Shown here: positions 51,166 to 52,791 of the stretch, piece by piece | Layout: each line of letters opens with the position of its first letter | How positions within the stretch are numbered: position 1 is the stretch's first letter | Source of the DNA: Chitinophagaceae bacterium | GTDB taxonomy: Bacteria; Bacteroidota; Bacteroidia; Chitinophagales; Chitinophagaceae | Direction: 5' to 3' | Assembly: GCA_004322425.1 (NCBI GenBank) | Contig: SCVJ01000004.1 | Span: forward strand, 27,690-91,689 | DNA: 64,000 bases | Program-made: the position numbers and the translations under genes | The notes under the pieces: model-generated | Database searches by the model: none | Seen by the model: the letters and a program-made list of their open reading frames with translations, nothing else | What the model was told of the DNA's origin: nothing

Positions 51166-52791
51166 ATGATTAGCGTTCGCGATTTAAAATTAGCCTATGG
51201 CAAAAGAGTACTTTTTGAAGAAGTAAATCTGAATTTTACAAAAGGTAATTGCTATGGCGTAATTGGTGCCAATGGTGCAGGGAAAAGTACTTTTTTAAAA
51301 ATCTTAAGTGGAGAAATTGAACCCAATCGCGGTGAAGTAAATATTACACCGGGAGAAAGGGTTGCTATTCTAAAACAAAATCAATTTGAATTTGATGAGC
51401 AAACGGTTTTAAATACGGTGATGATGGGCTTTACCAAATTGTGGAAAGTAACGAAAGAAAGAGATGCTATTTATGCATTAGCCGATTTTACTGAAGCAGA
51501 TGGAATGAAAGCAGCCGAACTTGAAGCTGAGTTTGGTGAAATTGGTGGATACACCGCAGAAAACGATGCTGCTACACTTTTAGGAGAATTGGGTGTGGAT
51601 ATAAATTATCATCAATCGCTGATGAAAGATATTCCGTCTAATTTAAAAGTAAGGGCATTGCTAGCGCAATCATTATTTGGCAATCCCGATATTCTATTAT
51701 TGGATGAACCTACCAATGGATTAGATATTGAAACAATTAGTTGGTTAGAAAATTTTCTTGCTGATTACGAAAATATTGTACTTATTGTAAGTCATGATCG
51801 ACATTTTTTAGACGCGGTTTGTACGCATGTGGCTGATGTGGATCGACAAAAAGTTAAAATATTTACTGGTAATTATACTTTTTGGTACGAAAGTTCTCAA
51901 TTAATGGCTCGTCAATTGAGCGATAAAAATAAAAAGACGGAAGATAAACGTCAGGCATTAATTGACTTTATTGCACGATTCAGTGCAAATGCTTCAAAAA
52001 GTAAGCAAGCAACATCTCGTAAAAAAGCATTGGAAAAATTATCGATTGAAGAAATTGAACCGAGTTATCGAAAATATCCCGGAATTATTTTTCAACAATT
52101 GAGAGAAGTGGGGAATCAAATCTTATCCGTTGAAAAACTTTCAAAGTCAATTGACGGACGAAGCCTTTTCCAAAATGTTTCTTTTACAATAAACAAGGGC
52201 GATAAAATTGCATTACTCAGCAAGGATCCACTTGCTGTAACTAGTTTTTTTAATATTATTCATGGACAAATTGAAGCTGATTACGGTACTTTTTTATGGG
52301 GTAGTACAGTTACAAAAGCATATTTACCAATTGAAAATGAAGAATTTTTTAATGAAGATAAAAGTTTGATGGAATGGTTGAGACAATATGTGCCGCCACA
52401 TATTACCGATGTTGATGAACCATTTCTACGAGGATTTTTAGGAAAAATGCTTTTTAGTGGCGACGATATTTTGAAGAAAACAAAAGTGTTGAGTGGTGGT
52501 GAAAAAGTTCGTTGTATGTTGAGCAGAATGATGCTGCAAAACCCAAATGTAATTTCGTTGGATCAGCCCACGAACCATCTTGATTTGGAAAGCATTCAAA
52601 GTTTTAATGAACAATGTGCCGATTATAAAGGAATTGTATTACTCACAAGTCACGATCATACATTTATGCAAACAGTTGCCAATCGTATCATTGAATTAAC
52701 TCCAAATGGAATTATTGATCGACTTATGGAATTTGATCAATACTTAACCGATGAAAGAGTTAAAGAACTTCGCGCAACATTGTATCGATAG
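51166..52791 (+). CDS. ABC-F family ATPase (YbiT-like), NBD2 degenerate
   Basis: NBD1 '[17 protein letters not shown]' and '[12 protein letters not shown]'; linker '[21 protein letters not shown]'; NBD2 signature '[11 protein letters not shown]' with '[12 protein letters not shown]'. Confidence 0.95.

Follow-up and report, generated by a model that had tools for sequence, protein, structure and literature searches.

ABC-F proteins typically possess two complete ATP sites, a feature that is typical of the class rather than strictly defining, and work on these proteins assumes two sites, with double Glu-to-Gln (EQ2) mutants serving as standard probes. An ABC-F gene at 51166..52791 (+) of the window analyzed here, a stretch of 64,000 nucleotides from a Chitinophagaceae bacterium, raises the question of whether such a factor may operate with a single ATP site, and what a glutamine at the catalytic position of the other site would then mean. 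The original prediction for this gene had described a second nucleotide-binding domain (NBD2) with a degenerate Walker A and a natural Glu-to-Gln replacement, likened the latter to the laboratory mutation that traps ABC-Fs on ribosomes, and proposed a slow-release ribosome factor or a structural regulator.

The gene encodes a YbiT/YkpA-type ABC-F protein

The 541-aa product has the ABC-F architecture, i.e., two PF00005 stretches and a PF12848 match (aa 224-305) in one chain, with no transmembrane domain. The PF12848 match marks the inter-domain linker, or P-site tRNA interaction motif region (51874..52101, +), whose limits are approximate and were set by analogy with EttA of Mycobacterium tuberculosis (MtbEttA) (PMC8782954). 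The top family model was NF011646 (YbiT), with 618.8 bits over aa 1-531, far ahead of a general ribosomal-protection model (314 bits) and of Vga (260 bits). Although this score is under the 762-bit equivalog cut-off, only 1 of 14 control genomes passed it, and the cut-off thus appears tuned to proteobacterial YbiT. The nearest solved structure by sequence is ribosome-bound Escherichia coli YbiT (PDB 9njf, E=1.8e-147; see also 9nlf), which likewise ranked first in a fold search and shares the same domain order and about 42-43% identity over the full length. The YkpA-type grouping reflects 56-59% identity to YkpA-type proteins of Bacillus and Paenibacillus, compared to 27-32% with ABC-F paralogues of the same genome. 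The gene is present in a single copy in the source genome. Two other full-length ABC-F proteins were among the hits there, and each of these paralogues is canonical at both of its sites.

That the protein might be an antibiotic-resistance (ARE) ABC-F and not a housekeeping factor was considered, given its ABC-F membership and weak matches to ARE families. However, all ARE models (Vga/Msr/Lsa/OptrA etc.) scored far below their curated cut-offs, the YbiT model and the YbiT structure were the best matches, and each genome in which the gene was found has a single copy, the gene being distributed across the clade. An ARE function was rejected on the family scores, and we regard it as very improbable.

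A strong terminator-like hairpin with a T run (51075..51099, +) lies between groEL and the ABC-F gene, and the gene is therefore probably its own transcription unit, separate from groESL. Upstream of the gene, a TAnnTTTG box was noted at 51136-51143, a pattern whose frequency in the window is no higher than chance, and a sigma-70 promoter scan on the coding strand was uninformative. The gene neighborhood (groESL or the downstream permease) was rejected as a functional clue, since only 2 of the 37 Gln-type loci that span 6 kb or more have groEL upstream. Elsewhere in the window, SecD and SecF are apparently fused in one ORF of 1017 aa (41869-44922, -), and the region at 3840-10924 (+) resembles a hydroxyproline/proline-racemase catabolic operon, with a DHDPS-like aldolase, an aldehyde dehydrogenase, a racemase/epimerase, and an FAD-dependent oxidase; this operon-like cluster is broken by a BNR-repeat-like secreted protein.

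One composite ATP site is intact and the other is dismantled

Each ATP site of an ABC protein is made up of the Walker A, Walker B, Q-loop, and H-loop of one NBD and the signature of the other (PMC7756269). For site I, all of these elements are intact: the NBD1 Walker A GANGAGKST (aa 34-42; 51265..51291, +), the Q-loop with Gln71 (51373..51381, +), the Walker B with catalytic Glu181 (aa 177-187; 51694..51726, +), the H-switch His210 (51790..51804, +), and the signature LSGGEKVR contributed by NBD2 (52489..52512, +). We compared 209 orthologues from Bacteroidota, Bacillota, Fusobacteriota, and Mycoplasmatota, the non-Bacteroidota sequences being thinly sampled from plasmid and chromid records, and counted changes by parsimony on FastTree trees, with the site-II motif columns masked in tree building. 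The NBD1 Walker A consensus and the SGG of the NBD2 signature were each found in 209/209 sequences. No change was counted at G34, K40, Q71, D180, E181, H210, or S443-E446, and the NBD2 D-loop NHLD, which should serve site I, is near-invariant.

In contrast, the elements of site II are degenerate. The NBD1 signature reads DIPSNLKVR in place of xLSGGQ (51628..51654, +), with SGG found in 1 of 209 orthologues. In NBD2, the A-loop region (52141..52170, +), aligned to LTKGFDNGPLF of E. coli YbiT, has lost its aromatic residue; the pseudo-Walker A core SKDPLAVTS (within aa 350-362; 52219..52245, +) contains no GK[ST], the consensus being found in 0/209; the Q-loop has lost its Gln, with LPIEN where E. 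coli YbiT has YAQDH (52324..52338, +); and in the Walker B (aa 464-473; 52555..52584, +), the catalytic Glu is replaced by Gln467, encoded by CAG at 52564..52566 (+). The H-switch His496 (52648..52665, +) is present here, with R, Y, Q, K, or P in other lineages and His absent in 23 of 209 sequences. Among the orthologues, the NBD1 D-loop serving site II is variable, and change counts reached 34-57 at each of the NBD1 signature positions 157-160, 64 at the Q-loop, and 46 at the Walker A Lys position, with 11 at the Glu, 8 at the His, and 3 at the Asp.

Since all degenerate elements belong to site II and all site-I elements are intact, the defect, as judged by sequence motifs, is a dismantled composite site II as a whole rather than a sloppy second domain. 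At site II, the motifs depart from the two complete sites typical of ABC-Fs, and the clustering of odd motifs there, with site I intact, is the pattern of a Pdr5-like degenerate composite site. The features on which the original prediction was built proved accurate: NBD1 is canonical in its Walker A and Walker B, NBD2 has a Walker A without GK[S/T] and a Gln for the catalytic Glu, and recomputed coordinates placed the CAG codon at 52564-52566; the natural asymmetry it described extends to the 209 orthologues. It had overlooked the degenerate NBD1 signature and the NBD2 A-loop and Q-loop.

In an AlphaFold2 model (37 sequences, mean pLDDT 79.7), the NBD2 fold is kept, with pLDDT of about 84-93 at aa 321-400. 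The helix following the pseudo-P-loop is predicted to start at Pro355, ahead of the Lys-equivalent Val358, compared to a start at Lys40 for its counterpart in NBD1, where the P-loop itself was modelled with low confidence. The model is consistent with a phosphate pocket of site II that is filled in.

As a control, 21 sequences of an ABC-F paralogue were taken from this genome and its relatives, with identities as low as 46%. Both of their sites carry canonical Walker A, signature, Walker B, and H-switch motifs, indicating that the decay is a property of YbiT/YkpA rather than of the genomes as a whole.

Decay of site II is graded, and Walker A loss appears older than Glu loss

The site-II Lys is retained in only 10 of the 209 orthologues (Bacillota, Fusobacteriota, and Mycoplasmatota, together with a few Bacteroidota), in partial motifs such as GxxxxAKT; the decay is therefore graded. 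A canonical NBD2 Walker A was found in proteobacterial YbiT (E. coli, Aeromonas, Halomonas, Pseudoalteromonas, and Vibrio), one Chlamydiota member, and one Bacteroidota family, and the NBD1 signature is already unusual in this set. E. coli YbiT, for instance, shares with the protein described here a non-canonical NBD1 signature, EVAPGWKLR, but differs from it in that its NBD2 is canonical in the Walker A (GTNGVGKST), the Q-loop, the Glu, and the H-switch. The YkpA-type protein of Bacillus velezensis (L243), a close relative of B. subtilis YkpA with 56% identity to our protein, is similarly broken in its NBD2 Walker A (GRNELAVTT), Q-loop, and NBD1 signature, but it retains the NBD2 catalytic Glu and His.

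Glu467 was lost independently in several groups, to Q in Chitinophagales, Clostridia, and Mycoplasmopsis, N in Fusobacteriota, T in Bacteroidales, D in Lactobacillales, and G elsewhere, while Glu is still present in many relatives without a Walker A, including Chitinophaga, Niastella, other Bacteroidota families, and Bacillus. Walker A loss thus appears older than Glu loss. The simplest order, read from which groups share which states and not from a dated reconstruction, would be loss of the signature, then of the Walker A, then of the Glu or His separately in each lineage.

Two YbiT orthologues from the phylum-level Bacteroidota set (L233 and L235) have an NBD2 Walker B of DGPTNHLD, with Gly at the Glu position, yet carry a Lys in a partial Walker A (GPNDLIKTT and GPNDLVKTT, respectively); the Glu can therefore go before the Lys. 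A contig labelled Beijerinckiaceae (Alphaproteobacteria) (L107) bears a typical Chitinophagaceae-like ybiT, which suggests that this assembly is mislabelled or contaminated.

Gln467 is fixed in a Chitinophagales clade and maintained

Gln was found at position 467 in all five congeneric genomes found, and the Gln pattern was detected in 108 of 200 Chitinophagaceae genomes (62 of 104 genera), compared to 1 of 286 other Bacteroidota genomes sampled; in a Bacteroidota-wide sample, all 8 positives among 297 were Chitinophagales. In the tree, 106 Chitinophagales leaves, all with Gln, form a clade (support, 0.97) whose nearest relatives, Chitinophaga, have Glu. Because Glu persists in many relatives that already lack the Walker A, Gln467 seems to be a late addition, particular to its lineage, to a decay that had begun earlier.

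These data also bear on the idea that the gene is a non-functional or pseudogenised ABC-F, or that Gln467 and the odd Walker A are metagenome-assembly errors. The source genome is indeed fragmented, in 318 contigs, but the same residues occur in many unrelated assemblies and in cultured Flavisolibacter, Flavihumibacter, Sediminibacterium, Terrimonas, and Membranihabitans. The ORF is also complete, and about 39% of its positions have kept their amino acid throughout the Gln clade. Gln467 is neither strain-specific nor a sequencing error; orthologue comparison, which confirms the CAG codon indirectly, refuted the latter, and the probability we would give to this whole explanation is negligible.

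As 38 loci had been fetched via the Gln pattern itself, the selection test was limited to the 79 clade members fetched without it. In these 79 leaves, the Gln codon (43 CAG and 36 CAA) underwent 22 synonymous changes and no amino-acid change, evidence that Gln467 is maintained. If constraint on site II had simply relaxed after Walker A loss, neutral drift would make the Gln meaningless, and the variety of replacements among lineages (Q, D, N, T, and G at 467; R, Y, Q, K, and P at 496) fits such drift. The absence of non-synonymous change once Gln was fixed does not, nor does the number of changes at position 467 (11, vs a median of 14 per site) or the restricted occurrence of a Gly in the opposing D-loop, described below. 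We therefore hold drift alone to be quite unlikely.

The alignment column most associated with loss of Glu467 is residue 185 of the NBD1 D-loop (phi, 0.87), which should face site II: Gly185 is found in 0/84 rows with Glu467 and only alongside a non-Glu residue at 467. A phylogenetic sign test of the 467-185 pair was not significant (median p, 0.25), with too few independent pairs. In one Chitinophagaceae sequence (BIN25; L058), an independent Glu-to-Gln change arose among Glu-bearing Niastella-type proteins, with Asn, not Gly, at 185. Coupling between residue 467 and the D-loop Gly185, seen here as covariation in an alignment, may be taken as a lead only.

DISCUSSION

The explanation that best accommodates these observations is a housekeeping YbiT/YkpA translation factor in which one ATP site works and the other composite site is dead, and as a whole we consider it probable. 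ATP would bind at site I alone and close the two NBDs; the factor would then enter the ribosomal E site, where its linker would point at and act on the peptidyl-transferase centre, until ATP hydrolysis at site I released the factor from the ribosome. Site II would be a nucleotide-free but structurally constrained interface or hinge, such that each cycle would consume one ATP instead of two. Gln467 would be a late replacement in an already dead site, held afterward by selection for packing or hydrogen bonding. The anatomy of the two sites, its conservation, and the independent losses are observed in the sequences, whereas the emptiness of site II, the single ATP per cycle, and the structural role of Gln467 are inferred. 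A point in favor of the single-site reading is that site identity, not domain identity, predicts which motifs are retained. Ribosome binding and action at the E site are proposed by analogy with the YbiT structures and B. subtilis YkpA, which helps translation of charged stretches and whose loss leads to stalling there (PMC11381351).

Several observations run counter to this reading. Most orthologues still have His496 and Asp466, and purifying selection acts on Gln467 and on parts of the pseudo-P-loop; site II is therefore more than a relic and might even accommodate a ligand. The decay is also graded, given the few sequences with a Lys in a partial Walker A. In addition, in MsrD, which has two intact sites, mutation of one Glu renders the protein impaired or toxic (PMC10314930), indicating that other ABC-Fs do not readily tolerate the loss of a site. 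In a rival explanation close to the original prediction, site II might bind ATP or another nucleotide non-canonically and hold it unhydrolysed, with the Gln making a slow-release factor, as degenerate sites of some ABC transporters may keep unhydrolysed ATP (PMC7756269); the strong maintenance of Gln467 and the frequent retention of Asp466 and His496 would agree with this. Nonetheless, site II lacks the Walker A Lys, both Walker A Gly residues, the A-loop aromatic, the Q-loop Gln, and the opposing signature, and the asymmetry is not defined by the Gln, since many relatives without a Walker A keep the Glu. Nucleotide retention at site II thus seems unlikely to us.

The same losses bear on the comparison with laboratory mutants that the original prediction had drawn. 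EQ mutations trap ABC-Fs with ATP bound and unhydrolysed (PMC5909423, PMC10314930), and both the EQ2 mutants and the single-site MsrD mutants E125Q and E434Q carry Gln for Glu at the position of Gln467, but they keep the Walker A and bind ATP. This logic does not carry over to a site with no P-loop, where there is probably no ATP to hold; judged by its motifs, site II is expected to be empty and not locked, and the case for a natural EQ trap is weak. A structural regulator, also put forward there, would fit the dead site II but would not describe a protein that, taken as a whole, retains a complete ATP site. Functional asymmetry between ABC-F sites does have precedent, as the two sites of MsrD behave differently in single EQ mutants (PMC10314930). 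The two sites of MtbEttA, which like E. coli EttA is an ABC-F factor of the E site, are engaged in an asymmetric manner prior to hydrolysis (PMC8782954), although nucleotide is bound at both.

With regard to known systems outside the ABC-F class, transporters offer well-known examples of degenerate composite sites, the nearest analogue being yeast Pdr5. In Pdr5, one composite site is altered throughout, in the Walker A Lys, the Walker B Glu, the H-loop, and the opposite signature (PMC7756269); however, Pdr5 is a membrane transporter of unrelated function, whereas the protein described here is soluble and presumably ribosomal and has lost its Walker A more completely. Among the open papers searched, we found no published account of site degeneracy in YbiT/YkpA.

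More broadly, and with odds that we would place slightly short of even, the widespread YkpA-type housekeeping branch may consist, across several phyla, of single-site ATPases whose dead site is a selected structural or allosteric interface, with residues 467 and 185 co-evolving and Glu-to-Gln reached independently in several lineages. If YkpA-type factors do run on one site, the EQ2 design would need rethinking for B. subtilis YkpA and for Bacteroidota. The family would also offer a natural graded series, from intact E. coli YbiT through the partial forms of Paenibacillus and Bacillus to the Gln clade, in which the role of each ATP on the ribosome could be asked, and a bacterial, soluble counterpart to degenerate-site transporters such as Pdr5.
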